Source of the DNA: Corallium rubrum
Taxonomy: Eukaryota > Cnidaria > Anthozoa > Scleralcyonacea > Coralliidae
Direction of reading: 5' to 3'
Length of the DNA stretch: 64,000 nucleotides
Assembly: GCA_964035015.1 (NCBI GenBank)
Contig: OZ036001.1
Coordinates: 14,714,111-14,778,110, forward strand
The notes under the pieces are model-generated. The model was given only the letters and a program-made list of their open reading frames with translations, was not told the DNA's origin and ran no database searches. Position 1 is the stretch's first letter. The number at the start of each line of letters is the position of its first letter. This document shows positions 36,512 to 58,220 of the stretch, piece by piece. Made by a program: the position numbers and the translations under genes.

Positions 36512-39500
36512 ATGTCGGAAAAGAAGAAGAAATTGAAGAAATTGCTTAAATATCGCGATGGTCATCGCAGTTTTGTCCGGAAAACAATCGATAACGCTAA
36601 AGAATTGATCGCTGGAGAAAATCTTGTCGAGTTAAAGAAGTTAAAGCTCCTTCGTACCACACTTCAAAGCAAGAGTTCGGAGCTTCAAGTGTTGGATCGT
36701 GATGTAGTCGAACTGTTGGAAGATGACTCAAAGATTGACGAAGAAGTGTCAGAGAGTTGTGACTTTACCAGTGCCATTCAGGAGTGTATTGTCGAATTGG
36801 AAGCTTTATTGGTAGCAGAAGAAACACGAGCGAAAGGTCAGCAATTGAATGTACAAGCCATGGGAACATCTTCAAGTCAACTGCCAAAAGTTCAAGCTCA
36901 CGCAAGGCTACCGAAGCTATAACTGAAGAAATTCCATGGAAATCCCATCGAATGGTACCCATTTTGGGAGTCTTTCGAGTCAGCAGTTCACAAGAATCCA
37001 AATCTATCAGCTGTGGATAAATTTAATTATTTAAAATCACTTCTTATGGGAACGGCTCAAAGTGTCATCACTGGTTTAGCGCTGACGAGTGCAAATTACG
37101 ACAAGGCAGTTGAATTGCTCAAGAAAAGATTTGGAAATCGTCAAATTGTGATCTCCAGCCATATGGAAGCACTCACCAAAATTCCTAAGATAACAGAGAT
37201 TGGTGATGTGAAGCGACTACGAAACTTGTACGACCTAGTGGAATCCCATGTACGTGGTCTGGAAAGTGTGGAAATTTCCCCAGAGATGTATGGTTGCTTC
37301 TTGACACCCATCATTCTTCAGAAATTACCTGAGGAGTTCCGAATCGCAATTACACGCAATCTGGGATCTGATACGTGGGAACTGAAGGATATTCTGAGTG
37401 AGTTTCACAAGGAACTACAATTGAGAGAACAGTGTTTGCTTAACACCAAAGAATCGAAGGATTTGAAGCTACCTGGCTCAGGTCGTCAGAGAGGTGAGTC
37501 ATCCTATTCTACAGCAGCCTTATACTCGGATAACTCTAAAAATCCTCAAGGTTCCCGTGTATGGTGTTCATTCTGTAATGGAGACCATCGAAGCACTAAG
37601 TGCAATGTTGTAACAACTCCTGAGTCGAGAAAGCAAATTCTCAAGAAAAAGGGAAGGTGTTTTCTCTGCTTGAGAAGTGGACATTTATCACGTGACTGTC
37701 AAAGTCCTGTAAAATGCTTCAGATGTCATAAGGCTCACCATGTATCAATTTGTAACAACTCGGAACAACCCAGGGACACTCAGGAACCAGGTGAGGAACA
37801 ATCTGCCCAAACTACAACCAGTGCGTACTGTGGTGAAGAATTGAGAGGATCAGTTTTGCTTCAGACTGCAACTGCTGATGTGATACGTCCAGATGATGAA
37901 AGCTATTCAAGAAGTGTTCGTCTAGTCTTTGATTCGTGCAGTCAAAGATCTTACATCACAGAAAACCTCAAGAACAAATTGGCGTTACGAGTGATTGGTA
38001 AAGATTCACTTCTGATAAAAACGTTTGGAGAGTCTGATGCTAGGCTACGTTCATGTGAGATTGTTCAAGTTGGTATCAAGACAGCATTTGGAGAAACTGT
38101 GTATGTTCAGGTGTATGTAGTACCGGTGATATGTGGTCCACCTACTCAACCTCCTGCAGAACTTACTCAGTGTACCTATGAGCACTTACGCGGTCTTCCA
38201 TTGGCAGAATGGGCAGGTGTAAGAGATCGGACAGTTAGTATCCTCATTGGTGCTGACTACTACTGGTCCTTGGTTGAAGGTACCGTGATCAGAGGTGCCC
38301 CAAGTGAACCAGTTGCCCTAGCGACTAAATTGGGATATGTCTTATCTGGACCCACCATGGTCAGACCAGAGGATAAGGATGGCTACTCTGTGAACCTCAC
38401 TGCAACTCACGTTCTCAAAGTGGAATCAAGCATCGTTAAAGAAGATGCATTAACCTCCGAAGTAAAGAAATTTTGGGACTATGAATCTCTTGGAATCCAG
38501 GACCAGAACTCCTCTCTGTATGACAAGTTTATTGATGAAGTTGAATTTGTGGAAGGAAGATATCAAGTACGGTTACCCTTCAAAGAGGACCATGAACTGC
38601 TTCCAGATAATTTTGCCCTGTGTAAATCAAGACTTGCATCACTCCTGAAGCGTCTGGGGTCAAACCCTGAAGTAGCAAGGCAATACAATGATGTCATTCA
38701 AGAACAACGTGAACAAGGAATTATTGAGCCAGTGGAGCAAAGTATCAACAATGGTGTGGGCAAGGTCCACTATATCCCTCACCACGAAGTGATCCGTGTT
38801 GACAAAGAAACCACAAAGCTGCGTGTTGTTTATGATGCTAGCGCTCAGTCAGGAAGAAACACACCGAGTCTCAATGACTGTCTCTATGCCGGTCCACCTC
38901 TGTCTCCACTCATTTATGATATCCTCCTGAGGTTTCGCATCCATAGAACTGCCATCATAGGAGACATTGAGAAAGCCTTTTTGAATGTTTCAGTTGATCC
39001 AAGAGACCGTGACTATCTACGCTTTCTGTGGGTTGATGATGCCTCAAGAGAACACCCAAATCTTCAAGTATACAGATTTGCAAGAGTTGCCTTTGGTATC
39101 TCGTCCAGCCCATTCCTATTAAACGCCACGATTCGTCATCACCTTACCTCTACTGATACCCCCAGAGAGTTTGCTGAGAAAGTGTTGAAAAGTCTGTATG
39201 TGGATGATTTTGTAAGTGGAGATGATTCCAACGAGTCCGTCTTCGAGATGTACAAGAATCTGAAATCCTCATTCAACAACGGAGGTTTCAATATGCGAAA
39301 ATGGTCTTCCAACTCAGCAGTTCTACAAGAAAGAATCGAAGAAGTCGAACGTCAGCAGAAAGTCAGCGAAAGTCAGTCCGAAGATACTGAATATTCAAGT
39401 ACGACTGTGGAAGTCCAAGGAATTCAGGAAGAAGATCAAACCTTCTCAAGCTCACTATTCGAATCAGCAAGGAAGCCTGACACAGCAAAGTTGAAGGTCC

Positions 39501-42013
39501 TTGGAGTAGGATGGGATAATCAGAAAGACTTATTGTTTTTCGACCTAGCTTCGCCATTGGGAAACATCAGTGATGTTCCAGTCACAAAGAGAGTTATTCT
39601 TGGTACAACAAGCAAGCTGTACGATCCTCTGGGATTTCTGAGCCCTGTTATCGTTCTTCTGAAGATTATCTTCCAATCTATTTGCAAATCGAAAGTGGAC
39701 TGGGATGGCCCTGTTGATTCATTCCTTCATGAAAGGTGGTTGAAGCTCGTCCAAGACATGAAGAACGTCGGAGTCTTGGAGCTGAAGAGACATTACTTCT
39801 GCAATTCATCACTAGCAGAGTTACGAAGTGTTCAACTCCACGGATTCGCTGATGCATCGGAAAAGGCATATGGAGCGGTTGTCTACCTACGTGTTGAACT
39901 GAAATCTGGAGCTGTCTTCACTCAAATTGTGTCTTCAAAGACTCGTGTTGCACCAGTGAATGGGGACACCATACCTCGCCTTGAGCTATTGAGCGCCCTC
40001 ATTCTAGCCCGACTGATGAGCAGTGTCTTAACAGCATTTGACAGAACGTTAAAGATTGATTCTATTTTCTGCTGGTTAGACTCACAAATTGCCTTGTGGT
40101 GGATATGGGGGATGAAGAAAGAATTCAAGCAGTTTGTACAGAATAGAGTCGTGGAGATTCGTCGGCTTGTAAAGCCAGCACAATGGAACTATTGTCCCTC
40201 GGAATTGAATCCAGCTGATATCTGTTCTCGTGGATCGATGGCTTCGAAGCTAATTACCAACCACGTGTGGTGGAATGGTCCAGAGTTTCTTCTAAAAAGC
40301 AACGAATTCTGGCCAAGTATTCAAGGAAATTCGATGGAAGTCGCAAATGATGATTCAGATCCCCGTCTCGAGTTGAAGAAGGAAAAGTCAAGCAGCTTGA
40401 AGAAGCAGCAGAACAGTACAGTTCTGAACATTGTCTCTGAAAAAACGTCAAGAAGGAAGTTAAATCTCGAATGTCTCATTTCCTTGGAAAGATTTGGTAG
40501 TCTACGGCGACTGATACGAGTCACTTCATACGTCTTGCGATTTGTATCTAACCTCAAGCTAAGTAAAGCAAGAAAGGAGTTGATCCTTGGAGAAGTTAAT
40601 CAATCAGAACTCGACCAAGCAAGAGAACTTTGGTACAGGGAAGTACAAAGAACTGTGCTTGAAGATAAGAAGTTTGGTCAGGTGAAAGTCTCATTGCAAC
40701 TGTACGCAGATGAGAAAGGTATCCTGAGATGTGGAGGACGCCTTGAAAACGCGCCAATCCCGTATGCTGGTCGTTTTCCGATATTTCTTCCAAGATGTTC
40801 TCGCTTTACACACTTGGTCATCGAGGATTGTCACAAGAAAGTCATGCACAACGGCGTGAGAGATACACTTACTGAGCTTAGGTCAAGATTTTGGGTGCCC
40901 AAAGGAAGACTAGCTGTAAGGACGGTGATAAAAATATGTTCAGTTTGTAAGAAGATCGAAGGAAGAAGCTATGCTGTTCCTCCTCCTTCGCCACTTCCTG
41001 ATTTTCGGTTAAGCGACGAGTTTGCGTTCACTCGAGTAGGCGTAGATTTCGCTGGTCCTCTCTATGTCAAGGACGTATTCTCAAAGAAAGGAGAAGCGAA
41101 GAAAGCTTATATAGCTTTGTTTACATGTGCTACAACCCGTGCCGTCCATCTGGAACTAGTACCTAATCTGAGTGGAGAAAGTTTTATAAGAGCTCTGATG
41201 CGCTTTAAAGGAAGACGAGGGACACCTACCTTGATTGTCAGCGACAACGGGAAAACTTTTAAGGACGAAAAGGTGCAGACCTTTTGTCAACGTGATGGTA
41301 CAGAGTGGAAGTTCAATGTCGAAGCAGCCCCATGGTGGGGTGGTTTTTTCGAGCGACTTGTCAAGTCAGTGAAGTTATGTCTGAAGAAGTGTCTACGAAA
41401 TGCTCGATTGGACTACGATGAAATGTCTACCAGTTTGGTCGAAGTTGAAGCTGTATTGAATTCGCGACCCTTAACGTATGTTTATGACGAAATGGAAGAA
41501 CCGTTGACGCCTTCCCATTTGATCGTTGGCCGCAGAATTCTATCCGTTCCAGCAAAGAGCTCTTTCAACGAAGATGTAAATGAAGGAACAATCACAAGGA
41601 GAGTAAAGTTCTTGCAACGAACCCTTGATCACTTCTGGAATCGTTGGCGAGCCGAGTATCTAACAGAACTTCGTGAACATCATCGGTATTCCAAGAGAGC
41701 AAATTCACTCCGTAAGGTGAGAGTGGGAGATATAGTATGTCTACACGATCATAAGATCCCAAGACAAAGGTGGCGCCTGGGAAAGGTCGAACGCTTACTC
41801 CCCGGACGTGATGGTCATGTCCGAAGTGCTGTAGTAAGAGTGAAAGCGGGTAACTCCCCTACAGCTGAATTTAGACGTCCTTTGCAAAGGTTGTACCCCT
41901 TGGAAGTGGAGCAACATACCAAACCTGACATTCCTGTGGCACAAGGAGTGAACATTCCTATTAAAATAGTAAAGGACGAAGATATACCGCATGTAGTCGA
42001 GAACATTAGATGA
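36512..42013 (+). CDS. BEL/Pao gag-pol polyprotein with one in-frame stop
   Basis: ATG at 36512. The frame is interrupted only by TAA at 36920-36922 and then continues in the same frame to TGA at 42013. Order: coiled gag start; gag core (KKFHGNPIEWYPFWESFESA); three CCHC-type knuckles around 37564-37755; aspartic protease motif at 37931 (FDSCSQRS, Cys where Gly is usual); RT with GDIEKAF and YVDD (39197); RNase H (GFADASEKAYGA); integrase HHCC (ICSVCKK) and D,D35E (D at 41045, D at 41243, E at 41351); then the C-terminal domain usual for BEL. Length and order fit BEL/Pao. The stop may be inactivating or an assembly error. Confidence 0.92.
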
Positions 42014-43837: not shown

Positions 43838-44304
43838 TGTAGAACATATAGCGTAACATGCTATAATGCCGATTTTATTACACCCCGATTATACTAATTA
43901 TTGGTAAAACATATAACGTAACATGATATAATCCATAATTACACCCCGATTTACTAATTATTGGTAAATTGGGTCAAACACATAACGTAACATGATATAA
44001 TCCATAATTACACCCCGATTTTACTAATTATTGGTAAATTGGGGTAAGTTTATGTGTCAGTTGGGTCAAACATATAACGTAACATGATATAATCCAAAAT
44101 TACACCCCGATTTTACTAATTATTGGTAAATTGGGGTAAGTTTATGTCTCAGTTGGGTCAAACATATAACGTAACATGATATAATCCATAATTACACCCC
44201 GATTTTACTAATTATTGGTAAATTGGGGTAAGTTTATGTGTCAGTTGGGTCAAACATATAACGTACCAGATATAATCCATAATTACACCCCGATTTTACT
44301 AATT
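43838..44304. repeat. 92-bp minisatellite, left block
   Basis: Tandem units of ATTGGTAAATTGGGGTAAGT...ACACCCCGATTTTACTAATT. The first units are more degenerate (an array edge). Interrupted at ACTAATT by the Helentron. Confidence 0.95.
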
Positions 44305-44305
44305 A

Positions 44306-44331
44306 CTCGGGCTACCTGTGGTAGCCGAGTC
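44306..44331 (+). other. Left-terminal hairpin of the Helentron
   Basis: Eleven to twelve base-pair stem with a TGT loop and one unpaired G. Confidence 0.75.
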
Positions 44332-44487
44332 TAGGTTTCGCGATTATTTTTTTTGTTTTTTTGGGTCGAGATATTGCCCGAAGAGGCTTTGCGAAACTGC
44401 AGGCATGTGACTATATCCATGTGATCCACTGGCTTCTTCCTTTTCGAATTTCGATCGAGTCACTCTAGCTAGTGGTTAGAAGTCGAA

Positions 44488-46026
44488 GTGTTTATGTCAG
44501 CTGCTTGCCTGCTTGCTTGGAAGAGGAAGTGTTTAAAGTCAGTTATGTTGCTGGTAAGTATCTTGTTCTTGAATACGCTCACAATGCTTACAAACGCACA
44601 CGCCGATCGCGGTAGACCTACTCTAAAAGATGCCGAGCGATTTCGAAACGGGTTGGTCCGCGAAGTCACCAATCTTACTATGAATGCCAGTCTTACTATG
44701 AATGCCAGTCTTACTATGAATGCCAGTCTTACTATGAATGCCAGTCTTACTATGAATGCCAGTCTTACTATGAATGCCAGTCTTACTATGAATGCCAATC
44801 TTACTATGAATGCCAAACTTACAAATCTAAAAACGAATATAAACTTGAATACAACGTACTTATGTGTGTTATTGAATTGCTCAAATCATGTGAATAGAAG
44901 CACAAAGAACATAAGCTTACTTGAAGCCAAGTTGCAAGTGACAGGTAAATATGCTGTGTTGATATTACCCGAGGAGACTCAACATTATATGAACGCTGTA
45001 TGGAATTCATGTATTGAGGTAACTTTATTAATATTTATGATTTGTTTTATTGTTGCCTATATTGTTTATTGTGTTAATACAAATGTCGTGCAAAATAAAG
45101 TCGATGTGATTCAACAGTTTATCGTTTCATCAAGTGACACTTATGAGAGAGACACAGTGTCTTTTGTCCATGAACAGTCACACATTGTTTTGCCAAATAA
45201 TTCAGAAAGCATGTTACTATCGAATAACCCTGCTTCACTTGACATTGTAGCTGTATATGAAAATGTAAAATGTTCCCAGTTATCAGTACAAGTTTCCGTT
45301 GATATTGACCCAGAGACTTTAAATACAAAGGAATGTAGATCTCGTTATGCTAAATTTATTGTGATTGAGGTAAAGTACAACCGCCATGTTGGTCGACGTG
45401 ATCGAGAACCTAGCAGGATCCCAGCTAAAAAACTCTCTCGCCTCTTGAATAAAAGTAGAAAATTACGTAAACAGCTTCGAAAACACATTAAAAGAAATGT
45501 ACCCAGGTCTTCTCATATCCATCGTTTGCTTTATGCATTTAGCCATGAACGAAAAAAGCTGCTGAGCAATCAAGTAAGGTATTTACCCCAAGTTAATAAA
45601 AAAACAAAGGGTTTACATGAAAAATCAAAACGACGTAGAAAACAAACAGCTGGACCGAAAACTTCTGTATTTTTATCTAAAAATATAAATAAAGAGAGGC
45701 ACAAGGCGTATACAAAACCACCATACCGAAATTATTTATTAATAGAATCAACTCCCTGTACTTACCTGAACTTAAACCACAGGGTGAATTGCTGCAAGTT
45801 CAATCTTAGTAGAGACATTGAAAAGAACCCAGGTCCTACTTTTATTGATCCTAGTAAAACTATCCATGCACCTTATAGTCAAGGTGATGTTGATGTATTT
45901 GGTCCAAATGCAGGACAGCAATGTGTAGCTATGAGTTTGTGTGCTTTGATACATAACTTCAGAAACAAATCAATGACAATAACTCAACCATACCACCTGG
46001 TGCAAATTATGAACCATTGGAAATGA
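44488..46026 (+). CDS. Helentron ORF part 1: secreted/membrane leader, 2A peptide, start of OTU protease
   Basis: 512 codons. From M20 a typical signal peptide (MLLVSILFLNTLTMLTNAHA). Residues ~62-110: eight LTMNAS-type repeats. Further N-x-T/S sites (NTT, NCS, NRS, NIS) follow to ~140. Residues 178-196: hydrophobic TM (VTLLIFMICFIVAYIVYCV). Residues ~300-410: very basic (RKLRKQLRKHIKR, KSKRRRK). Residues 443-450: DIEKNPGP, a 2A motif. Then the OTU start (DVDVFGP, GQQCVAMSLCALI) with the likely nucleophile C479. The frame ends prematurely: a one-base shift near 46013 moves the OTU domain into the next frame. If 2A works, a glycosylated membrane protein and the replication polyprotein are made separately from one frame. 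Confidence 0.8.
   Translation: MFMSAACLLAWKRKCLKSVMLLVSILFLNTLTMLTNAHADRGRPTLKDAERFRNGLVREVTNLTMNASLTMNASLTMNASLTMNASLTMNASLTMNASLTMNANLTMNAKLTNLKTNINLNTTYLCVLLNCSNHVNRSTKNISLLEAKLQVTGKYAVLILPEETQHYMNAVWNSCIEVTLLIFMICFIVAYIVYCVNTNVVQNKVDVIQQFIVSSSDTYERDTVSFVHEQSHIVLPNNSESMLLSNNPASLDIVAVYENVKCSQLSVQVSVDIDPETLNTKECRSRYAKFIVIEVKYNRHVGRRDREPSRIPAKKLSRLLNKSRKLRKQLRKHIKRNVPRSSHIHRLLYAFSHERKKLLSNQVRYLPQVNKKTKGLHEKSKRRRKQTAGPKTSVFLSKNINKERHKAYTKPPYRNYLLIESTPCTYLNLNHRVNCCKFNLSRDIEKNPGPTFIDPSKTIHAPYSQGDVDVFGPNAGQQCVAMSLCALIHNFRNKSMTITQPYHLVQIMNHWK
44673..44816 (+). repeat. 18-bp coding tandem repeat (8 units)
   Basis: CTTACTATGAATGCCAGT repeated; six units encode LTMNAS, the last two LTMNAN and LTMNAK. 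Most units create N-x-S/T sites (NAS, and NLT where N precedes LT). Copy number is probably variable. Confidence 0.9.
45814..45837 (+). other. 2A ribosome-skipping motif DIEKNPGP
   Basis: Matches the D-V/I-E-x-N-P-G-P consensus exactly, preceded by a Cys/Leu-containing stretch (CCKFNLSR). Known 2A signals separate products at the final G-P during translation. 2A-like motifs occur in some invertebrate retroelements. Confidence 0.85.
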
Positions 46027-46027
46027 A

Positions 46028-49000
46028 TTGTATTCTGCATTGTCAAGACTATCAGGGCAATCTTATTTATTGCTAACTGAATTACCCAGCATGGTTACAG
46101 TGCTAAATACAAATTATCAACTTGAGTTTAGTGAAAGTTACTCTGGTAGACTCCATACAACTACTTTGAGTGAAAACATCCCATATGTCATGCCCTTAGA
46201 ATGTGCTTTACAAGCTTTAGTACAAGAAAGTTATAATTCATTTCTGTTAACAATTGGATGTAGTACTGTATCCATCTATACTACTGCAAATGGTTTACTG
46301 AAAATATTTGATTCACATGCAAGAGATTCATTCGGTATGGCCCACCCTCGTGGAACATGTGTATTGTTGGAAGTAAATTCAGTTATTGACTTGGTAGAAT
46401 ATTTCAAAAATTTATACAAACCTGATGTTTTATTTGAGCTTAAAGGCATTAAAATTACTGTTGTACAATTTACACAAATTACAAATATACATACAAACAC
46501 ATCTGAATCAGGTCACTGTTCATCGACATGTGATAATAAGACATTTATTAATGACAATTTAAATTGTTCTCGGCAATGTTGTGCAATGTGCCTCTATTCT
46601 ATCTGCTTTTCTACTATTAAGGCATGTAGTTACTGGAATGATCTGACATTGAGTGCTGTTGCAGAGCATGGCATGTTCATTTACCAGGGAGCCTCAAATG
46701 GTGGAAATGAGTTTACATGTAATTATTTGCCAACTACAGTAAATATACATGGTGCTGATGTTGAGGTGGTATTTAATTCAAGGCAGCAGGACACATTGGT
46801 TACTAACTCTGTTTCTAGTAAACTGGCCTTTAAGAGTTTAATATTAGATAACACTTCAGAAAATACTGGGTTTTTGCTGTGGCTTCCAAACTATTGCTTA
46901 TCTTGCATTTTTCAACATAATACAAGGCAAATAAAGTATTTCTTGGTGGCATGCAATGAAAGGCAAACAATTAATTTATTTGAACAATTTAATGATACAG
47001 ATTTTCTCATTAATAGATTTTGCCATATTATCACACAAAAACTTAAATGTGAAGAAATACAATACAATATTCAATTTTTGTCATGTTCGTGTCAACTAAC
47101 AAAATCAGAGAGACAAAAAGTTGTAAGAAAGCATAAATCTACCACACAAAAAAGGTTACTTGCTGAGAAAAAAAGAGAAGAATATGCAAATTTGGAACCT
47201 GCTAGGAAAAAAATTATGCTTGAGAAAGCTGCTTTAGACTACAAAATTATGGATGCTATGGGAAAAAAAGATCTACTTGAAACAAAAACAAAAAAATATA
47301 AATCAATGAACCCATTGAAAAAGAAAGTTCTTGTTGAAATAAATGCACAAAAATGTAAATCAATGAACCCATTGAAAAAGAAAGTTCTTGTTGAAACAAA
47401 TGCACAAAAATATAAATCAATGGACCCTGTGGAAAAGAAAGTTCTTCTTGAAACAGAAACAAAAAAATATAAATTAAAAAAATGTAAATTATTAATGGAT
47501 TTACATGACTTGGATGATTATATTTCTAGGTTTTGCAGTAAAATAAAAGAAGGTCCTTATTATATATGTTCTGTTTGCAATCGGTTACTCTACAGAAAAT
47601 CAGTCATGTCATTAAATCAAAATAAGTACACAAATGCCCCTGAAACTCTGTTCACTGATGTAAAGTCATTTGATGAAAAAGAATACATTTGTAAAACCTG
47701 CCATTCAAAGTTGTCAAAGGGGAAAATTCCTTGCCAAGCAATATATAATAACATGTATGTTGATAACATACCAGTTGAGCTTGCATGTTTAGAAAAACTT
47801 GAACAAATTCTTATTGCACAGCGAATAGTTTTTGAGAAGATAATAGTCATGCCAAAAGGACAGCAAAGAAAAGTTAAGGGAGCAATTTGTAATGTGCCGG
47901 TTGAATGTGATGAGACATGTAAAGTTTTACCACGGCCACCAGAAAGATCGGGTATTATAATGTTGAAACTTAAACGTAAACTTGAATTCAGAGGTCATGT
48001 GTATTTTCAAGCAGTACGTCCTCAGTTCATTCTTGATGCTCTTAACTGGCTCAAGGTAAACAATCCATTGTATAATAATATTACAATTGATATTCAAAAT
48101 ATCAGTGCAAAACTGACTAGTTTAGAACAAGATAACAATACTTCAGGTATAAATTTTGATAAAAATCAAAAGTCCTTGACAGAAAACTGCAAGCAATACG
48201 TTACGAATGATGATGATACTGAGGAAAAAGATGACCCATTGAATGAATATAGACAAGCAACTAATGAGACATGTTTACAGTCTGTATTACCAGATTACCC
48301 TGTTACAATACAAAGTAATGAAAATTGTTCTTTAGGGAATGAAGTGTACAATATTGCACCTGGAGAAAACAAACACCCTGTATCACTAATGAGAGACATA
48401 AAATGTGAAGAGCTTGCATTTCCAGTGTTGTTTCCAAAAGGACAGTTTGGCTTCACAGATGATAGAAAGATTAAATTGTCACCAGTGAAGTACTTCAATG
48501 CTCGACTTTTGCATTATAGCGGAAGGTTTGCAACAAATCCAGAGTATCTTTTCTTTGCACAATTTATAATGGAACAAAAAAAAGTATCAGATAGTATTAA
48601 TATAGCCTTAAAAAAAATTCATGGCCAACCTGTAACTGCATCACAAATAAAATCAGATGTAAACAAGTTAAAAGGCTTAATTTGTCAAGATCAGGCATAT
48701 TTGTTTTTAAGGCAAATTCCAGGCACACCACCATACTGGCAAAAATTTATGTACGAAGTAGTAGCCATGGTAAAACAACTTGAGATTCCAACATGGTTTA
48801 TGACATTATCATGTGCTGATCTTAGATGGCCTGAGTTGTTTCAGATTATAGCTAGAACACAAGGGAAAAACATGACTGACGAACAAGTTGAAGCTTTGTC
48901 TTACAATGAAAGATGTTCAATGCTAAATCTTAATCCTGTTGTTGTTGCAAAGCATTTTCAATATAGAGTTGAAACATTTTTCACTGAACTTCTGCTTAGC

Positions 49001-50455
49001 CAAAATAACCCAATAGGCAAAATCATCTATTATGCACTCCGTATTGAATTTCAAATGAGAGGATCTCCTCATTTACATGCATTAATATGGACTTCTGATT
49101 GCCCCAAACTTACATCTGACAACAAAGAAGCTTACATACAATTTATAGATAACCATGTACAAACCTATCTTCCAGATGAAGAAACAGAACCAGAGTTACA
49201 CGAGTTAGTTAAAACTTATCAAAAGCACAATCATTCTAAAACCTGCAGAAAATACAAAAATATTAGTTGTAGATTTAATTTTGGTCAATATTTCACCAAA
49301 AGCACAATAGTAGCAGAACCTCTTAATAGTGATCTAGATGAAGGAATCAAGAGTAATATACTCGACAGGCGAACACACATTCTGACCTCAGTCAAACAGA
49401 AAATAGATGAAGTATTAAACCCATCCAAGCCAGATTATAATGAAACATTAAATGATGCAGACATTCTAAAATCAGTAGGTGTCACTGAGGATGAATATTA
49501 CTGGGCTCTATCAATATCACCAGACTCTGATTTTGAGTTGCATCTCAAAAGGCCTGTAGACAGCTGTTTTATTAACAATTACTTTGTTGCTGGTATAAAG
49601 GGATTTGCAGCAAATGTTGACTTGCAGCCTGTATTCAATCACTACAAATGCATAACATATGTGTGCTCATACTTTACTAAAGATGAAACTGAATGTTCTC
49701 AAGCTATTACAAATGCAGCAAAAGAAGCAAAAGCTGCTAACATGAATATTAGAGATGGCCTGAAAAAAGTTGGTGCTGCTTTTCTCTCTACAAGAGAAGT
49801 TAGTTCACAAGAATGTGTCTACAGATCATTGCCTGAACTTTGGTTGAGAAAAATATTTCCAAAAACAGTTTTTGTTAGTACAGATTTCCCAGAAAAGAGG
49901 GTACGTGTGACTAAGACACAAGTGGAGCTTGATGAACTAGATGATGAAAGTACTGATATCTTTAAGTCAAATATAATTCAGCGTTACAGCATTAGACCAA
50001 CAACAATTCCAGTTGTTGGTAAATTATGTCTGGCAGAATTTGCTGCATATTACTATAAAGATTATAAAATTGATTATAGTGAAACAAAAGATTCCCAACC
50101 TGATGTTCTAACAGATGACTTGGTTGAATCGCAAAGTACCATAAGTGATACAACACAGTGCCTTCCGAAAAAAATAAAATTAATTAACACCAACGAATAC
50201 ATGAAGTGTAGAAAAGTCAAGGCTGTATTAAGGTATCATACACCAAATAAAAGAAAAGAACCAGAATCTTATTTTCACCATTTACTTATGCTCTATTATC
50301 CATGGTGTGATGAAAGTAAACTAATGGCTTCAGATCAAACATATGCATCAAAGTTCTATGAACCTGATGTCCAAGCTATTGTTGAACACAACAGAGCAAT
50401 ATTCGAACCTGATGCAGATGCTGTTAGTGAGGCTCTTGAAGTATTAAAAGTCTAA
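46028..50455 (+). CDS. Helentron ORF part 2: OTU remainder, DUF6570, HUH Rep
   Basis: The first ATG-independent codon is an artefact; this is the continuation of part 1 after a one-base shift. Order: rest of OTU with the His motif (LKIFDSHARDSFGM); Cys-rich segment; a Lys/Glu tandem (KSMNPLKKKVLVE, ~23 residues, several copies at 47230-47480); DUF6570-like zinc region (YYICSVCNR, YICKTCHSKL); Rep N-terminal region; HUH-type motif (GSPHLHALIW, H1015 and H1017); and the tyrosine pair YVCSY (Y1211, Y1215) with FTKDE. Rep nicks and joins DNA in rolling-circle transposition. Ends early by a second frame change at ~50450. Confidence 0.85.
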   Translation: MYSALSRLSGQSYLLLTELPSMVTVLNTNYQLEFSESYSGRLHTTTLSENIPYVMPLECALQALVQESYNSFLLTIGCSTVSIYTTANGLLKIFDSHARDSFGMAHPRGTCVLLEVNSVIDLVEYFKNLYKPDVLFELKGIKITVVQFTQITNIHTNTSESGHCSSTCDNKTFINDNLNCSRQCCAMCLYSICFSTIKACSYWNDLTLSAVAEHGMFIYQGASNGGNEFTCNYLPTTVNIHGADVEVVFNSRQQDTLVTNSVSSKLAFKSLILDNTSENTGFLLWLPNYCLSCIFQHNTRQIKYFLVACNERQTINLFEQFNDTDFLINRFCHIITQKLKCEEIQYNIQFLSCSCQLTKSERQKVVRKHKSTTQKRLLAEKKREEYANLEPARKKIMLEKAALDYKIMDAMGKKDLLETKTKKYKSMNPLKKKVLVEINAQKCKSMNPLKKKVLVETNAQKYKSMDPVEKKVLLETETKKYKLKKCKLLMDLHDLDDYISRFCSKIKEGPYYICSVCNRLLYRKSVMSLNQNKYTNAPETLFTDVKSFDEKEYICKTCHSKLSKGKIPCQAIYNNMYVDNIPVELACLEKLEQILIAQRIVFEKIIVMPKGQQRKVKGAICNVPVECDETCKVLPRPPERSGIIMLKLKRKLEFRGHVYFQAVRPQFILDALNWLKVNNPLYNNITIDIQNISAKLTSLEQDNNTSGINFDKNQKSLTENCKQYVTNDDDTEEKDDPLNEYRQATNETCLQSVLPDYPVTIQSNENCSLGNEVYNIAPGENKHPVSLMRDIKCEELAFPVLFPKGQFGFTDDRKIKLSPVKYFNARLLHYSGRFATNPEYLFFAQFIMEQKKVSDSINIALKKIHGQPVTASQIKSDVNKLKGLICQDQAYLFLRQIPGTPPYWQKFMYEVVAMVKQLEIPTWFMTLSCADLRWPELFQIIARTQGKNMTDEQVEALSYNERCSMLNLNPVVVAKHFQYRVETFFTELLLSQNNPIGKIIYYALRIEFQMRGSPHLHALIWTSDCPKLTSDNKEAYIQFIDNHVQTYLPDEETEPELHELVKTYQKHNHSKTCRKYKNISCRFNFGQYFTKSTIVAEPLNSDLDEGIKSNILDRRTHILTSVKQKIDEVLNPSKPDYNETLNDADILKSVGVTEDEYYWALSISPDSDFELHLKRPVDSCFINNYFVAGIKGFAANVDLQPVFNHYKCITYVCSYFTKDETECSQAITNAAKEAKAANMNIRDGLKKVGAAFLSTREVSSQECVYRSLPELWLRKIFPKTVFVSTDFPEKRVRVTKTQVELDELDDESTDIFKSNIIQRYSIRPTTIPVVGKLCLAEFAAYYYKDYKIDYSETKDSQPDVLTDDLVESQSTISDTTQCLPKKIKLINTNEYMKCRKVKAVLRYHTPNKRKEPESYFHHLLMLYYPWCDESKLMASDQTYASKFYEPDVQAIVEHNRAIFEPDADAVSEALEVLKV

Positions 50456-51548
50456 TCAGGGCAATATTCATTCATTTGATTCAATAAATGACCAAGAAAA
50501 TGCAGATTTACAAGGTGAAATGCAAGATGACTCAATCCCACATGAATCATTTAATGAATAATTACCATCACATCTTGACTCAACACCACAATCCAATCAG
50601 CATACTTCCCCTGGAGTAATTACTTCTTACAACCGACCAACAGAGATCTCTGATGATATATTACGTGAAACTGTGAGGTCCTTGAACATTGAGCAACGTC
50701 ATGCATATGATACATTTCTGACATGGTGTAGGAATACAATGAAAAACATGAACAGCTTAAAACCTGTTGAAATACAACCAATCTATCTTTTCTTAACTGG
50801 TGGTGGAGGTGCAGGCAAAAGTCACCTCATTAAAACAATATACCATACAGCAGTTAAAACTTTTAGACATCCTCCTATGAACCCTGAATTACCAACAGTT
50901 CTTCTCATGGCACCAACAGGTGTGGCTGCAATAAACATTGATGGAACAACAATAAATACTGGTCTTGCAATTCCCAAAGAAACTGGTGATAATGTACCTG
51001 CAATGTCAGACCAAAAGAAAACACAATTGAGACTATCATTATCTGACCTAAAGCTAATCATAATAGATGAAATTTCTATGGTTGGAAACACAACCTTACT
51101 TCATATCCATCAAAGATTAAAAGAAATATTTGGCACCACCAGTTCTCTGTTATTTGCAGGAATTACTATTATAGTTGTAGGTGATCTATGTCAACTTCCA
51201 CCAATACGTAAGAGATTTGTATTTGACAATTTCAAAAATGATTCTTATAATCTATGCCATCCATGGAATGTCTTCAAAATGATAGAACTTCATGAAATCA
51301 TGAGACAGAAAAACCACCAAGCATTTATTGAACTTCTTAACAGAGTAAGAACTGCTACTCAAACAGAAGATGACATTAAGATAATCCAATCAAGATCAAT
51401 AACCCCATCTGATCCTAATTATCCATCAGATGCACTTCATATCTGGGCCAAAAATGCTCCTGTTGATGAACATAACAAGAAAAAACTAGAAGAACTTTCT
51501 GGATTCTTATTTATTCTTAAAGCTAAAGTCAATATCCAACAAATGTAA
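50451..51548 (+). CDS. Helentron ORF part 3: PIF1-like helicase, N-terminal half
   Basis: In the third frame the coding resumes at SNQGNIHSFDSINDQ, meets a stop (TAA, 50559), and is open from 50562 on. Helicase motifs: Walker A FLTGGGGAGKSHL, Walker B LIIIDEISM (D132 counted from 50673), then GDLCQLPPI. The frame is lost at ~51528 by a one-base deletion (AAAGTCAATATCC region), after which the protein continues in the frame of 51641. The helicase unwinds the donor strand during rolling-circle transposition. Confidence 0.85.
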
Positions 51549-52555
51549 GGAAACAAGATATTGATAGAGTATTAGCAAGAGGGCGGCCTGAAACAGGTGG
51601 ACTTGCTTATGAAATTCTGATTAAAGAAGGTGCTAGAATAATGCTTACAACAAATATCAGTATTCCAGATAGACTCATCAATGGACAAATGGGAACTGTC
51701 TTTAAAGTTGATGTCAATCAAAATAACCAAAAACCAACTGTTCTCTATATTAAATTTGATGACTCAAATGCTGGTAAAGACTTAACTAACACTTGTGGCA
51801 ACCCTTTTGCAAGAGAAAACAACGTAGTTCCCATTGAACCTGTATTAGCAAAGATCAAAATAAGACCAGGTAAAGCATCTTCTCCAGAAATACAGAGAGT
51901 GCAATTCCCTGTTACACTTGCGTGGGCATGTACTGTACATAAGGTTCAGGTTCAAGGTCTAACACTTGAAAAAGTTGTAATCAGTTCTGACTTGTTAAAA
52001 CAGAGAGCGTTTAACTATGGACAAATTTATGTTGCTTTAAGCCGTGCAACTTCTTTACAAGGTCTCTATATTTTAGGACAAATTGAGAGTAAACATATTA
52101 AAGCAAATCCTAAAGTTCTTGAAGAATACCAAAGACTACGGAATGAATGTATGGTTCCACATTCAACAACTCTATTCCAAGACAATTTCAATGTTTTGAC
52201 CATATCACTTTTAAATATAAGATCTCTCAAAAAACATAGCATCGATATTAAATTTGATTCAAGAGTTTTCCATAGTGACCTCATAGCTCTTACTGAAACC
52301 CAACTACTACCTCAGGATTTTGACAATGAAATTTTAAATAATCTCAGTCCTTTCAAACTCCACCGTCAAGATCATGATACTGATAAATATTCAAGTATGG
52401 CACTTTGCACAAGAAATACTGTAGAAGTCAGAGAGTGTGAATATTTTTCTTCACTAAATGCAATAAAATTTGACCTGGTTAATAGTAAATCCCAAGAAAA
52501 ACAACTTTTCTTTTGCTGTATCGAAAGCAAGCCTCCAACATCCTACAATATGTAG
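51530..52555 (+). CDS. Helentron ORF part 4: helicase C-terminal half and start of EEP endonuclease
   Basis: Open from 51530 (QYPTNVRKQDIDRVLARG, GRPETGGL, GARIMLTTN, DRLINGQMGTV). The late helicase motif reads TVHKVQVQGLTL, two residues longer than usual, because GTTCAG is repeated as GTTCAA at ~51945-51957. QIYVALSRATSLQGLYI follows. Then a fused endonuclease/exonuclease/phosphatase domain starts (TISLLNIRSLKK, LIALTETQL), as described for Helentrons. A further one-base shift near 52512 ends this frame. Confidence 0.85.
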   Translation, partial: QYPTNVRKQDIDRVLARGRPETGGLAYEILIKEGARIMLTTNISIPDRLINGQMGTVFKVDVNQNNQKPTVLYIKFDDSNAGKDLTNTCGNPFARENNVVPIEPVLAKIKIRPGKASSPEIQRVQFPVTLAWACTVHKVQVQGLTLEKVVISSDLLKQRAFNYGQIYVALSRATSLQGLYILGQIESKHIKANPKVLEEYQRLRNECMVPHSTTLFQDNFNVLTISLLNIRSLKKHSIDIKFDSRVFHSDLIALTETQLLPQDFDNEILNNLSPFKLHRQDHDTDKYSSMALCTRNTVEVRECEYFSSLNAIKFDLVNSKSQEKQLFFCCIESKPPTSYNM

Positions 52556-52836
52556 ATTGTTTGGCATACATGTTAAATAGTTATACAATTGACATGATTT
52601 TTGGTGACTTTAATATTAATTACTTGAATGACAATCAAGTTCAACCACTAAAATCTTTAATGGAATCTCTCAATTACACTCAGATTGTAACAAAACCTAC
52701 ATTTATTTCTTCTGGTAGCTTATTAGACCATGTGTATGTTAGATCCACAGTATTTCAAGTAATTGACAATTATGTAGTCAATGTGTATTATTCTGATCAT
52801 GATGCTATCAAAATCATAGTACAATATTGCAACTAG
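52513..52836 (+). CDS. Helentron ORF part 5: EEP endonuclease C-terminus
   Basis: Continues the nuclease: DMIFGDFNIN, LLDHVYVRST, YYSDHDAIKI, then stop at 52836. The GDFN and SDH motifs are the expected late EEP motifs, so the nuclease is complete across the two frames. Confidence 0.85.
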   Translation: MLYRKQASNILQYVDCLAYMLNSYTIDMIFGDFNINYLNDNQVQPLKSLMESLNYTQIVTKPTFISSGSLLDHVYVRSTVFQVIDNYVVNVYYSDHDAIKIIVQYCN

Positions 52837-53002
52837 AGAATAATTATATCTATCACATTAATTGAAATATTATATTAATTACATGTACATTAGTTATATC
52901 CAATTCTTTCTGGCAATTGTTATCAAGCAAGTTTATCTTACACCATGTACATAGTCTCCTCAGAGATCCATGGATCCATATTCACAAACCATATTTATCA
53001 AT

Positions 53003-53228
53003 AAGGGGTGGGCCATTAGAAATCTTGCAGGGAGGGGGTGACAATTCCTGTGCAAAGTGATCAAAAAATCCTGCAGGCAATATACAGATAATACTGACAA
53101 ACTGTTTACAACTTTCCTTTATTGTCCAAAAACAAAATATCCTGCAGAGCTTACATAGGACAAAAGATGTCAGGCTTAGAAATAATTTTTTTACCCCCTC
53201 CCAAGATTTCTAATGGTCCACCCCTGAA
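53003..53228. mobile_element. MITE inside the Helentron 3' region
   Basis: AGGGGTGGGCCATTAGAAAT...GGAGGGGGTGACAA mirrored by TTACCCCCTCCCAAGATTTC...GGTCCACCCCTGAA. No coding content. Confidence 0.8.
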
Positions 53229-53519
53229 TTAGTGCAGTTACACTGCACTTGTATACTTGGGATGGTGCACCTATACTCAGTGCCTCTCTCCTGAAAAGGA
53301 TTTGAACACCTGGACAACCTCAACCATTGGACAACAAATTAATGTAAGTAAAAAAGTATACTAAATCTCTATGTAAATGTCCTTTAATATTGCAAAGTTC
53401 CCAATTGCATCCATAGCTTAATTGCTTTTTAACCCACTTATTTTCTCTCTGCTTCATATTTTAGATAAAACTAAACATTTGATAGAATCATGAAAAGCCT
53501 CAGCAATACTGATATGCTG

Positions 53520-54180
53520 TTGAAGTTATGAGTTGGACCATTACAGCACCAACCACCAATTTATTATTCTGGTATATATATTAAATGACTTTATAACATT
53601 GATATATCTGGTATTAATGAAAGAGCAAACAAATTAACACTGGTCCCTGAAGTAAATGGCTTCTACGACCACACAGTTGGAGTTGTGAGTTGGACTATTA
53701 AACCATCAACCACCAATTTATTACTCTGGTGTTAAATGACTTTAACTAACATTGTTATATCTGGTATTAATGAAGGAGCAAACAAATTAACACTGGTGTC
53801 TGAAGTAAATGGCTTCTACAGCCACACAGTTGGAGTTGTGAGTTCGACTATTAAACCATCAACCACCAATTTTGTTACTCTGGTATTAAATGACTTTATA
53901 ACATTGATATATCTGGTATTAATGAAGGAGCAAACAAAGTAACAGTGGCGTCTAAAGTAAATGGCTTCTACGACCACACAGTTGGAGTTGGACTATTAAA
54001 CCATCAACCTCGAATTTATTACTCTGGTATTAAATGACTTTATAACATTGACATATCTGGTAATAATCAATGAAAGAGCAAACAAATTAACACTGGCATC
54101 TGAAGTAAATAGCTTCTACAACCACGCAGTTGGAGTTGTGAGTTGGACTATTAAACCACCAATTTATTACTCTGGTATTA
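53520..54180. repeat. ~140-bp tandem repeat, about five imperfect copies
   Basis: Each copy has GGCTTCTACGACCACACAG, TTGGAGTTGTGAGTTGGACT, AAACCATCAACCACCAATTT and TTAAATGACTTTATAACATT. Subterminal in the Helentron. Confidence 0.85.
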
Positions 54181-54751
54181 AAATTAATTGACGTATCAAT
54201 AGAAGAGCAACCCCAATTAATGCCAATATTAATGCCAATATGAATGCCAATGTATATGAATACCAAAAATATATTTATAAATGCTAAAAGCATATGTATC
54301 AATGCCAAAGTTATACAGTATATGTGAACACCAAAGTTATATGTAAGAATGCCAAAGTATGTACAATTGAACATGGTGATGCTAACTTGATATAATTATA
54401 GCATGAGCAGTGCTGTTGATAATGCTGTTGCAGCCTTTAAAATGAATGACTTCAGATATCGTTATGTGAGATCTGTGAACACCATCTAAACAGTTTATTA
54501 ACAATAACTAAAATATTAAAATGTAATATGTACACAAAATGTCACAATACCATACATATAGTTCGAGATATAGTTAAAGCAATGTCATGATGGCTTTCAG
54601 TATATGAATTCTACGTTGTCCCAATCTAGGTTGTCCATGCATGTAAGTTTATAATTGTAGTCAATAAAAAAATTGTTCTTTGTAAAACAAGTGAGTGTGC
54701 TTTCTAACTAGTAGCTTTCTAACATGTCCTCTTGACCATTGCCCATGCCCA

Positions 54752-54785
54752 GTAGCCCGAGTTAACGCCTAGCGGGCGTCTTGTT
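54752..54785 (+). other. Right end of the Helentron
   Basis: GTAGCCCGAGTTA, hairpin ACGCCTAGCGGGCGT, CTTGTT. The same arrangement ends the derivative at 62741 and, with other sequence, the repeats at 30881 and 61600. Confidence 0.75.
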
Positions 54786-57083
54786 ATTGGTAAATTGGGG
54801 TAAGTTTATGTGTCAGTTGGGTCAAACATATAACGTACCAGATATAATCCATAATTACACCCCGATTTTACTAATTATTGGTAAATTGGGGTAAGTTTAT
54901 GTCTCAGTTGGGTAAAACATATAACGTAACATGATATAATCCAAAATTACACCCCGATTTTACTAATTATTGGTAAATTGGGGTAAGTTTATGTCTCAGT
55001 TGGGTCAAACATATAACGTAACATGATATAATCCATAATTACACCCCGATTTTACTAATTATTGGTAAATTGGGGTAAGTTTATGTCTCAGTTGGGTCAA
55101 ACATATAACGTAACATGATATAATCCAAAATTACACCCCAATTTTACTAATTATTGGTAAATTGGGGTAAGTTTATGTGTCAGTTGGGTCAAACATATAA
55201 CGTACCAGATATAATCCATAATTACACCCCGATTTTACTAATTATTGGTAAATTGGGGTAAGTTTATGTGTCAGTTGGGTCAAACATATAACGTACCAGA
55301 TATAATCCATAATTACACCCCGATTTTACTAATTATTGGTAAATTGGTGTAAGTTTATGTCTCAGTTGGGTAAAACATATAACGTAACATGATATAATCC
55401 AAAATTACACCCCGATTTACTAATTATTGGTAAATTGGGGTAAGTTTATGTGTCAGTTGGGTCAAACATATAACGTAACATGATATAATCCATAATTACA
55501 CCCCGATTTACTAATTATTGGTAAATTGGGGTAAGTTTATGTCTCAGTTGGGTAAAACATATAACGTAACATGATATAATCCAAAATTACACCCCTATTT
55601 TACTAATTATTGGTAAATTGGGGTAAGTTTATGTGTCAGTTGGGTCAAACATATAACGTAACATGATATAATCCATAATTACACCCCGATTTACTAATTA
55701 TTGGTAAATTGGGGTAGGTTTATGTCTCAGTTGGGTAAAACATATAACGTAACATGATATAATCCATAATTACACCCCGATTTTACTAGTTATTGGTAAA
55801 TTGGGGTAACCTTATGTCTCAGTTGGGTCAAACATATAACGTAACATGATATAATCCAAAATTACACCCCAATTTTACTAATTATTGGTAAATTGGGGTA
55901 AGTTTATGTCTCAGTTGGGTCAAACATATAACGTACCAGATATAATCCATAATTACACCCCGATTTTACGAATTATTGGTAAATTGGGGTAAGTTTATGT
56001 CTCAGTTGGGTCAAACATATAACGTACCAGATATAATCCATAATTACACCCCGATTTTACTAATTATTGGTAAATTGGGGTAAGTTTATGTCTCAGTTGA
56101 GTAAAACATATAACGTAACATGATATAATCCAAAATTACACCCCGATTTACTAATTATTGGTAAATTGGGGTAAGTTTATGTGTCAGTTGGGTCAAACAT
56201 ATAACGTAACATGATATAATCCAAAATTACACCCCGATTTTACTAATTATTGGTAAATTGGGGTAAGTTTATGTCTCAGTTGGGTCAAACATATAACGTA
56301 ACATGATATAATCCATAATTACACCCCTATTTTACTAATTATTGGTAAATTGGGGTAACTTTATGTCTCAGTTGGGTAAAACATATAACGTAACATGATA
56401 TAATCCATAATTACACCCCGATTTTACTAATTATTGGTAAATTGGGGTAACTTTATGTCTCAGTTGGGTAAAACATATAACGTAACATGATATAATCCAA
56501 AATTACACCCCTATTTTACTAATTATTGGTAAATTGGGGTAAGTTTATGTGTCAGTTGGGTCAAACATATAACGTAACATGATATAATCCATAATTACAC
56601 CCCGATTTTACTAATTATTGGTAAATTGGGGTAAGTTTATGTGTCAGTTGGGTCAAACATATAACGTAACATGATATAATCCAAAATTACACCCCGATTT
56701 TACTAATTATTGGTAAATTGGGGTAAGTTTATGTCTCAGTTGGGTCAAACATATAACGTAACATGATATAATCCATAATTACACCCCTATTTTACTAATT
56801 ATTGGTAAATTGGGGTAACTTTATGTCTCAGTTGGGTAAAACATATAACGTAACATGATATAATCCATAATTACACCCCGATTTTACTAATTATTGGTAA
56901 ATTGGGGTAACTTTATGTCTCAGTTGGGTAAAACATATAACGTAACATGATATAATCCAAAATTACACCCCTATTTTACTAATTATTGGTAAATTGGGGT
57001 AAGTTTATGTGTCAGTTGGGTCAAACATATAACGTAACATGATATAATCCATAATTACACCCCGATTTTACTAATTATTGGTA
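54786..57083. repeat. 92-bp minisatellite, right block (~25 units)
   Basis: Same unit as 43838-44304, with recurring variants (GTGTCAG/GTCTCAG, GTCAAAC/GTAAAAC, AACATGATATA/ACCAGATATA, CCGATTTT/CCTATTTT) arranged in higher-order groups. For example, 56150-56520 and 56600-56990 repeat the same variant series. Confidence 0.95.
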
Positions 57084-57112
57084 CAGAACTCGCGATCAAG
57101 CTCTCGGCAACG

Positions 57113-57184
57113 GCCTCCGTGGCTCAGTGGTCAGAGCATTGCACTAGAATCGCAAGGTCGTGGGTTCAATTCCTGCCGGAGGGC
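57113..57184 (+). tRNA. tRNA-like gene, class I, apparent AGA anticodon (copy 1)
   Basis: CCTCCG/CGGAGG acceptor stem (6 bp), A box TGGCTCAGTGG, anticodon arm TTGCA-CTAGAAT-CGCAA (four pairs, T33 present, anticodon AGA), 5-base variable loop, B box GGTTCAATTCC. AGA would read a Ser codon, but the short variable loop is not that of tRNA-Ser, so it is more likely a tRNA-derived repeat. It has usable Pol III boxes. Confidence 0.6.
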
Positions 57185-57389
57185 CTGTATAGTTGCATTT
57201 TTCGCAACTGCTCCCGGTTTGGTCTTAAAATGTATATATTCTACACTCGAATATTCCTTCACCCTAAATCCTTAGAACATGCTGTGTAATCGAGTGAAAT
57301 GCCCAATATCATTTATAATATACCCAATTTTCTCCTGGCATTACCACCTTATTATATATACAGAACTCGCGATCAAGCTCTCGGCAACG

Positions 57390-57461
57390 GCCTCCGTGGC
57401 TCAGTGGTCAGAGCATTGCACTAGAATCGCAAGGTCGTGGGTTCAATTCCTGCCGGAGGGC
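57390..57461 (+). tRNA. tRNA-like gene, copy 2
   Basis: Same 72-base tRNA part, 277 bp from copy 1; tail GTGTAG instead of GTATAG. Confidence 0.6.
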
Positions 57462-57666
57462 CTGTGTAGTTGCATTTTTCGCAACTGCTCCCGGTTTGGT
57501 CTTAAAATGTATATATTCTACACTCGAATATTCCTTCACCCTAAATCCTTAGAACATGCTGTGTAATCGAGTGAAATGCCCAATATCATTTATAATATAC
57601 CCAATTCTCTCCTGGCATTACCACCTTATCATATATACAGAACTCGCGATCAAGCTCTCGGCAACG

Positions 57667-57738
57667 GCCTCCGTGGCTCAGTGGTCAGAGCATTGCACTA
57701 GAATCGCAAGGTCGTGGGTTCAATTCCTGCCGGAGGGC
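57667..57738 (+). tRNA. tRNA-like gene, copy 3
   Basis: Identical to copy 2 in the tRNA part. Confidence 0.6.
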
Positions 57739-57943
57739 CTGTGTAGTTGCATTTTTCGCAACTGCTCCCGGTTTGGTCTTAAAATGTATATATTCTACAC
57801 TCGAATATTCCTTCACCCTAAATCCTTAGAACATGCTGTGTAATCGAGTGAAATGCCCAATATCATTTATAATATACCCAATTCTCTCCTGGCATTACCA
57901 CCTTATTATATATACAGAACTCGCGATCAAGCTCTCGGCAACG

Positions 57944-58015
57944 GCCTCCGTGGCTCAGTGGTCAGAGCATTGCACTAGAATCGCAAGGTCGTGGGTTCAA
58001 TTCCTGCCGGAGGGC
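57944..58015 (+). tRNA. tRNA-like gene, copy 4
   Basis: Identical to copy 2 in the tRNA part. Confidence 0.6.
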
Positions 58016-58220
58016 CTGTGTAGTTGCATTTTTCGCAACTGCTCCCGGTTTGGTCTTAAAATGTATATATTCTACACTCGAATATTCCTTCACCCTAAAT
58101 CCTTAGAACATGCTGTGTAATCGAGTGAAATGCCCAATACCATTTATAATATACCCAATTCTCTCCTGGCATTACCACCTTATTATATATACAGAACTCG
58201 CGATCAAGCTCTCGGCAACG

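Follow-up and report, generated by a model that had tools for sequence, protein, structure and literature searches.

A Helentron of 10,481 bp, a rolling-circle DNA transposon, lies in the 64,000-nucleotide stretch of the Corallium rubrum genome analysed here (assembly GCA_964035015.1, contig OZ036001.1, positions 14,714,111 to 14,778,110 of the forward strand; hereafter the window). It encloses an open reading frame (ORF) at 44473-46026, and the coding feature under study, which starts about 240 bp inside the element, begins with an accessory module that is followed by a 2A peptide and then by replication enzymes. The reading that we favour, with moderate confidence, is that a basic protein tethered to a membrane is split by the 2A from a soluble deubiquitinase-Rep-helicase-nuclease. 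The architecture itself, signal peptide/membrane segment, basic domain, 2A and enzymes, is very probably a family trait. If the 2A does part a membrane protein from these enzymes, one frame of a DNA transposon would yield two differently located proteins and the transposon would be investing in a membrane function, one that could easily be tested with the short module alone.

The first product and the 2A peptide

Relatives of the coding part (P0001 onward) were collected by three protein searches, each scoring only the ~8000 candidates that shared most words, which gave 159 different proteins. The five named ones are all from stony corals (Acropora millepora, A. digitifera, Pocillopora damicornis twice and Oculina patagonica), and two scans of viral contigs and one of genome contigs found no nucleotide relative of the coding part.

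The open frame 44473-46026 was verified in the window. From the methionine at 44545, the module consists of a signal-peptide-like 20-mer, the conserved DRGRPTLKDAERFRNG motif, an N-rich stretch, a membrane segment, the RSRYAKF motif, a basic helical domain, a linker and the 2A at residues 412-431 (Table 1), in agreement with the signal-peptide start, 19-residue membrane segment, subsequent basic region and exact 2A motif reported in an earlier reading of these letters alone (the sequence-only reading). The predicted signal peptide, MLLVSILFLNTLTMLTNAHA followed by D, was called by a rule combining hydropathy with an A-x-A-like site and not by SignalP; its peak 9-residue hydropathy of 3.09 lies above that of every one of the 176 other ATG starts in the window, outside the element, that are followed by 50 or more open codons. 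P0124, P0134, P0145 and P0147 all begin at this methionine column, while P0143, nearly identical to P0124, has a methionine there but an ORF that extends upstream, and was trimmed at that column for alignment. A splice-donor-like CTG/GTAAGT is found inside the signal-peptide codons (44551-44559). In the motif that follows, R/G/R/T/K/E/F/G are nearly invariant across 21 sequences, and the hydropathy of the sole membrane segment of the window product was reached by one of 200 shuffles. From sequence features of this kind, insertion of the first product into a membrane is predicted to be likely in the window's clade.

The 2A peptide ends in an exact DIEKNPGP at 45814-45837. RNA viruses and some non-LTR (long terminal repeat) retroelements are known to use ribosome skipping at 2A peptides. 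An exact D[V/I]ExNPGP was present in 67 of the 71 relatives that span the basic domain to the start of the following deubiquitinase (a set picked by pattern), with a one-residue departure in each of P0037, P0062, P0072 and P0077. The upstream context is conserved as well: among 109 occurrences of the motif, L was found at -3 in 106, H at -12 in 97 and N at -9 in 85. With this motif and context, the 2A is probably active, with ribosome skipping between the G and P of NPGP. An alternative is a dual-targeting switch, in which the efficiency of the 2A would set the shares of membrane-fused and free replicase, as in the 2A signal sequences of sea-urchin NLRs; signal peptide and 2A do occur here in one chain, and PMC4981915, in its available part, provides a precedent. 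Such a switch is nevertheless improbable, since ~400 residues lie between the signal peptide and the later 2A, which forms no part of it, and the strong conservation of the 2A and its context would suit efficient cleavage over a mixture.

According to the favoured reading of a 2A-separated, membrane-tethered product, the long gene would code for the accessory protein first, then the 2A, then VTD-DUF6570-Rep-PIF1-EEP. The signal peptide would bring the ribosome to the endoplasmic reticulum (ER), and the membrane segment would stop transfer and keep the basic helical domain on the cytosolic face or, after sorting, possibly on the inner nuclear face. At NPGP, one peptide bond would be skipped, the accessory protein would remain in the membrane, and the same ribosome would continue, releasing the soluble deubiquitinase-Rep-helicase-nuclease in about equal amount. 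We propose the chain split, ER entry and free second product because they would follow established 2A and signal-sequence biology, as covered in the available part of PMC4981915. The accessory protein might then tether the nucleic acid or nucleoprotein of the element to ER or nuclear membranes via its basic domain, the ectodomain being a fast-changing spacer. Among possible roles, tethering is preferred because a strongly basic, well-conserved part follows the membrane segment; as a specific function it stays tentative.

An AF2 model of the module (63 rows; 62 of 119 relatives) had a mean pLDDT of 55, with block means of 34-51 for the ectodomain, 79-91 for the membrane helix, 74-76 for the next helix and 74-95 for the basic helices. 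Modelling the basic stretch separately (54 of 159 relatives) gave a concordant result, with block means of 77-94, and the only confident helices are those of the membrane segment and the basic domain. No Pfam match and no PDB-sequence match was found for the module sequence. These results bear on the envelope-like layout put forward in the sequence-only reading, in which the first product would be a surface glycoprotein that moves the element or vesicles between cells or hosts, as the env of errantiviruses does. The window's clade does combine a signal peptide, a membrane segment and a fast-changing, repeat-prone ectodomain, in which sequon columns near window residues 98-117 are shared by four to eight close-clade rows. 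Similarity to envelope or fusion proteins was not found by sequence or, with these weak models, by fold in Pfam, PDB or BFVD; no capsid domain was among the Pfam matches of the window (no further capsid search was made), and many relatives have no signal peptide or no membrane segment. With no positive evidence in its favour, an envelope-like role appears rather remote. It is still less probable that an envelope-like or membrane-docking first product, released by the 2A in step with the replicase, serves for leaving or entering cells; were this true, these Helentrons would be partly infectious, which would explain their spread between hosts.

Conservation of the module among relatives

Three sets were chosen by pattern: 30 of 120 sequences for the shuffle, charge and sequon tests, 55 of 160 for the counts of membrane segments and signal peptides (the window included, all with an RGRPT-type motif and a basic domain), and 78 of 160 for a tree of the core domains. 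The close relative P0001, whose basic motif reads QEPSR, was missed by all three. The close-clade alignment contained 16 chosen rows. Membrane segments were called at a hydropathy of at least 1.6 and strong starts at 2.0.

Relatives with the same order of parts were looked for and found, and the layout is inherited and common to many related elements. P0097, a single ORF of 2435 aa on a 1.5 Mb contig, runs from a signal peptide through two membrane segments, the basic domain, the 2A (466), the deubiquitinase VTD (PF04843 match at 490-631, 24.0 bits against a cut-off of 25), DUF6570 (1253) and Rep (1522) to PIF1 (2284), and terminates inside the PIF1 profile. P0116 (2576 aa) contains two hydrophobic segments, a 2A at 277, PF04843, DUF6570, Rep and PIF1, and its residue 2572 aligns to the end of the window nuclease at 52827. 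The ORF of P0104 (2523 aa) extends from the basic domain through the EEP nuclease and has no membrane segment. Jointly, these three cover the full layout. P0098, P0102, P0103 and P0113 carry signal peptide, membrane segment, 2A and VTD, and P0114 (1399 aa) carries the RGRPT motif, basic domain, 2A, VTD and Rep, again with no membrane segment. In P0097, P0098 and P0100, a tandem duplication ahead of the basic domain takes in the RSRYAKF stretch with its surroundings.

Identity to the window, averaged over the close clade, is lowest in the ectodomain (43%, n=10) and rises through the membrane segment (60%, n=13), signal peptide (65%, n=5), post-signal motif (70%, n=10) and basic domain (77%, n=9) to the 2A region (80%, n=6). 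The membrane segment is kept in most relatives although the ectodomain is so divergent: 40 of the 55 sequences have at least one (one segment in 5, two in 33, three in 2; none in 15), and the first of these begins 69-131 residues beyond the RGRPT motif. In the 30-sequence set it was found in 27, and for 25 at most 5% of shuffles scored as high; the stretch from the membrane segment (or else the basic domain) to the 2A or the ORF end carried a net positive charge in all 30. The membrane part is common, not universal.

These counts also bear on the possibility that selection acts only on the basic domain, a predicted cytosolic or nuclear nucleic-acid binder released by the 2A, and that the membrane part is incidental, its signal peptide and hydrophobic stretches being drifting N-terminal additions. 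Basic domain and 2A are indeed the most constant parts, several groups lack both membrane segment and signal peptide, and N/T-rich repeats occur without either in the ORFs of P0017, P0026, P0136, P0148 and P0151. Plain drift would not, however, be expected to explain a membrane segment kept in 40 of 55 sequences, at a bounded distance past the RGRPT motif and in rows on both sides of the midpoint root of the core-domain tree (weak support), and we regard this explanation as somewhat unlikely. On the tree of 78 rows, of which 25 had no assignable state, presence of the membrane segment changes at least nine times, six of them forced by starred branches, and none of 500 shuffles gave a number as low. 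Absence in the tree can reflect a truncated ORF, as for P0034, which was scored as lacking the segment yet groups with the segment-bearing P0097 and P0100. Loss or replacement seems to have occurred more than once, as in P0028 and P0114 (RGRPT motif and no membrane segment) and P0007 (another N-terminus).

The motif TLxxHTNAHAVRGRPTLKDVERFRNG is kept without preceding hydrophobic residues in P0014, P0018, P0036, P0090 and others, which could indicate either that an exon further upstream codes for the signal peptide or that the motif has a different function. The sequence-only reading had also allowed for a captured host exon fused to the 5′ end of the element. Helitrons do capture gene pieces, as described in parts of PMC6431247 and PMC4067079, but among 58 relatives with the post-signal motif 49 continue into the basic domain by pattern and P0001 does so with a variant, 8 ending earlier or lacking it. 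No row bears the name of a host gene, though most rows are nameless, and the non-autonomous copy at 61.9 kb in the window keeps the same signal-peptide block. Capture was rejected as barely credible, the module sitting at a fixed place in the relatives.

The ectodomain was described in the sequence-only reading as glycosylation-rich with eight LTMNAS repeats. There is an array of eight units, of which six are exact LTMNAS, followed by LTMNAN and LTMNAK, and it supplies 7 or 8 of the 12 ectodomain sequons of the window. The array is private to the window copy: ectodomain sequons number 12 in the window but 0-4 in each of ten close relatives, and the region is unexpanded in the aligned close relatives (one LTMNAK and one LTMNIN unit in P0134). 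Across the 30 sequences, 84 ectodomain sequons were counted against 57 expected from shuffles, the window alone (12 against 4.2) accounting for ~8 of the surplus of 27. Some relatives with neither a signal peptide nor a membrane segment in their ORFs carry LTLNAMNAN-type repeats too. Glycosylation was rejected as the reason for the array on these two grounds, the richness claimed was overstated, and the case for a glycan-rich ectodomain as a selected trait appears weak.

Several observations weigh against the favoured reading. A laxer rule (2.0 plus an A-x-A-like site) was passed by 25 of the 176 unrelated window starts, and single signal peptides near the cut-off therefore prove little. Of the 45 relatives that could be assessed, 12 had a clear signal peptide; among the 28 non-redundant ones, 8 did. 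The sequence-only reading would have been given up if relatives lacked the module or the 2A, and this is partly the case, since 14 of the 45 lack both signal peptide and membrane segment, while the 2A stays. The absence of any row with a signal peptide and no membrane segment had a p of 0.005 over 45 rows but 0.16 over the 28 non-redundant ones, and a strict link between the two was not retained. Two or more hydrophobic segments were present in 35 of the 40 segment-bearing relatives; the type I topology first proposed fits the single segment of the window but is therefore not general. Two segments together with a cleaved signal peptide would place the basic domain on the luminal side, unless the pair forms a hairpin, and the membrane side of the basic domain is therefore uncertain. 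Overall AF2 confidence was low (mean pLDDT 55 and 66 for the two models), and a fold search of PDB and BFVD gave no significant match, with models of low confidence outside the two stretches. No ORF among those seen runs from signal peptide through EEP, and in the window the frame changes near 46015, 50450, 51528 and 52510 (tblastn of relatives).

The element and its enzymes

The Helentron is bounded by a 92-bp satellite that breaks off at 44303 and starts again at 54785. When the 25 bases preceding 44304 were joined to the 25 that begin at 54785, the resulting 50-bp sequence had 7 exact copies in the window, whereas 14 alternative pairs of break points joined likewise gave none, indicating insertion between two T residues without target duplication. 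The subterminal inverted repeats (44305-44315 and 54752-54762) match exactly over 11 bp and are accompanied by a 3′ palindrome, as expected for a Helentron, as are the Rep (HUH) with a PIF1-type helicase and the C-terminal AP-like (EEP) endonuclease, the last weak by profile.

Table 1 Features of the Helentron, in positions of the window
Feature	Position	Strand	Remarks
Whole Helentron	44304..54784	+	Inserted between T and T of 92-bp satellite array
5′ palindrome	44305..44330	+	Left arm ACTCGGGCTAC is the 5′ subterminal inverted repeat; read from sequence
Signal-peptide codons, 20 aa	44545..44604	+	A-H-A before predicted cleavage site; likely start Met
Post-signal conserved motif DRGRPTLKDAERFRNGLVREV	44605..44667	+	70% mean identity, 10 close relatives
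18-bp tandem array, eight LTMNA[S/N/K] units	44669..44815	+	8.2 copies; tandem-repeat listing
Membrane segment EVTLLIFMICFIVAYIVYC	45016..45072	+	Residues 158-176, hydropathy 2.81; AF2 helix
RSRYAKF motif and basic helical domain (RDREPSRIPAKKLSRLL...NVPRSSHIHRL)	45334..45528	+	77% mean identity, 9 close relatives
2A peptide HRVNCCKFNLSRDIEKNPGP	45778..45837	+	Predicted skip between G and P, 45834/45835
VTD (herpes-tegument-like, peptidase C76) deubiquitinase	45835..46507	+	Colinear with PF04843 region of P0003 and P0096
DUF6570	47717..48103	+	PF20209, E=1.1e-23
Rep region (Helitron_like_N)	48491..49087	+	PF14214, E=1e-32
PIF1-like helicase, first part	50775..51359	+	PF05970, E=2.6e-25; rest in another frame (tblastn of P0104)
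EEP (AP-like) endonuclease, C-terminal part	52504..52809	+	PF14529, E=7.1e-5, below curated cut-off
153-bp tandem repeats, 3′ non-coding part	53519..54162	+	Tandem-repeat listing
3′ subterminal inverted repeat GTAGCCCGAGT	54752..54762	+	Inverted recurrence of 5′ arm
Short 3′ terminal hairpin (ACGCC/GGCGT)	54765..54779	+	Read directly from sequence

Directly after the 2A, the window codes for a VTD and not for the OTU protease first proposed: the window proteins have no OTU (PF02338) match, and the relatives match Herpes_teg_N/PF04843 at this place (P0003, P0009, P0096, P0104, P0107, P0111 and P0116 above the cut-off, P0097 and P0098 just under it; P0008 has no such match and an OTU instead). 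The two VTD pieces into which the frameshift near 46015 splits the window domain have no Pfam match of their own at 0.1, and the second is 80% identical to P0003 over 436-601. VTDs are thiol proteases with an Asp-x-His motif, as stated in the available part of PMC9741609, and in the window the motifs NAGQQC (45907-45924) and FDSH, with Asp-Ser-His at 46310-46318, occupy matching places, the Cys at 45922-45924 being the presumed catalytic residue by its position. OTU was accordingly rejected as the enzyme of the window copy. In P0008 and P0025, for which OTU is also listed, the basic domain and 2A are present, followed in P0008 by the OTU, a deubiquitinase swap at one position; the first half of the element is therefore modular.

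DUF6570, the HUH Rep and the PIF1 helicase were all matched by Pfam in successive pieces of the window, as the sequence-only reading had it. For the EEP nuclease, the weak profile match is accompanied by alignment of P0104, P0111 and P0116 up to 52827; the C-terminal part is 65% identical to P0104 residues 2415-2521 (P0104's own PF14529 match, 1.3e-5, is likewise below cut-off) and the upstream part lies in another frame. With frame changes at four places, the window copy is broken, by decay or assembly error, the single ORF once described was overstated, and the noted ORF ends inside the VTD as a result of the frameshift near 46015. Most likely, the window element belongs to a Helentron lineage whose named relatives occur in stony corals, and is a copy that looks recent although it is broken.

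Further sequences were observed in and around the element. Between VTD and DUF6570, 57-bp tandem repeats (47263-47474; 3.7 copies, the unit a multiple of three) lie in a lysine-rich, DUF3106-like stretch, and a MITE-like insert of 222 bp with 24-bp inverted ends (96%) lies in the 3′ non-coding part (53004-53225). A non-autonomous Helentron at ~61700-62740 has a 3′ end in common with the large element (36 bp, 92%), terminates near 62705-62740 in a similar hairpin arrangement, and shares the signal-peptide-codon block (79 bp, 81%, element 44539-44617), which still reads MSLASILILYTLTILTIAPIAVDG. An older Helentron relic on the minus strand (27288-28467) contains VTD-like and DUF6570-like stretches in several frames, with 26-34% identity to the relatives. 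The long ORF at 37013-42013 (1666 aa) we take, from its motifs, to be a BEL/Pao-type retroelement, whose LTRs may be marked by two 10-bp repeat arrays that match each other, at 36294 and 42231. Two tandem arrays of tRNA-Ser genes are present, one at 24515-25868 (250-bp units, GGA anticodon, two copies on the minus and three on the plus strand) and one at 57082-58382 (277-bp units, AGA anticodon) that directly abuts the 92-bp satellite.

Comparison with known systems

A membrane module and 2A ahead of Helentron enzymes is a layout that we did not find described for this transposon class. No report of a 2A or of a signal-peptide or membrane protein in Helitrons or Helentrons was found among the open-access titles and abstract openings listed, a search that did not cover the systematic survey by Rao et al. 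(Cell Rep 2025) of 2As from eukaryotes and viruses, which may list such cases, and the text of PMC12846837 (2026, ~10,000 virus 2As) contains neither 'transpos' nor 'helicase'. Helentrons with a VTD deubiquitinase, which an OTU can accompany or replace, have been described (PMC9741609), and the window element is like them in its VTD. In the accessible part of that paper no N-terminal membrane protein or 2A is described for them; '2A peptide' and 'signal peptide' are absent, and 'transmembrane' appears only once, in a figure legend. The element also shares the definition of Helentrons given in the available part of PMC4067079: subterminal inverted repeats, 3′ palindrome, TT target, C-terminal endonuclease and, in some copies, tandem repeats. 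The extra proteins noted there, OTU, RPA, SET and hypothetical proteins, are unlike the membrane module of the window, and the captured transmembrane gene fragment in Phytophthora, from the same source, is a different thing from it.

Errantivirus-type LTR elements bear env genes. Burro, covered in part in PMC6431247, likewise exemplifies a transposon coding for an envelope-type membrane protein, but the module shows no sequence or significant fold similarity to those of such elements and here stands first, in frame and split off by a 2A. The 2As of non-LTR retrotransposons (Odon et al. 2013, as cited in the parts of PMC4981915 and PMC12846837 available) and of sea-urchin NLRs have the same D[V/I]ExNPGP end, and the NLR chains (PMC4981915) combine signal sequence and 2A as found here. 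Unlike in the NLR signal sequences, the 2A of the window element is far from the signal peptide, after the membrane segment and basic domain, and whereas the 2As in those available accounts belong to retroelements or immune genes, this one belongs to a rolling-circle DNA transposon.

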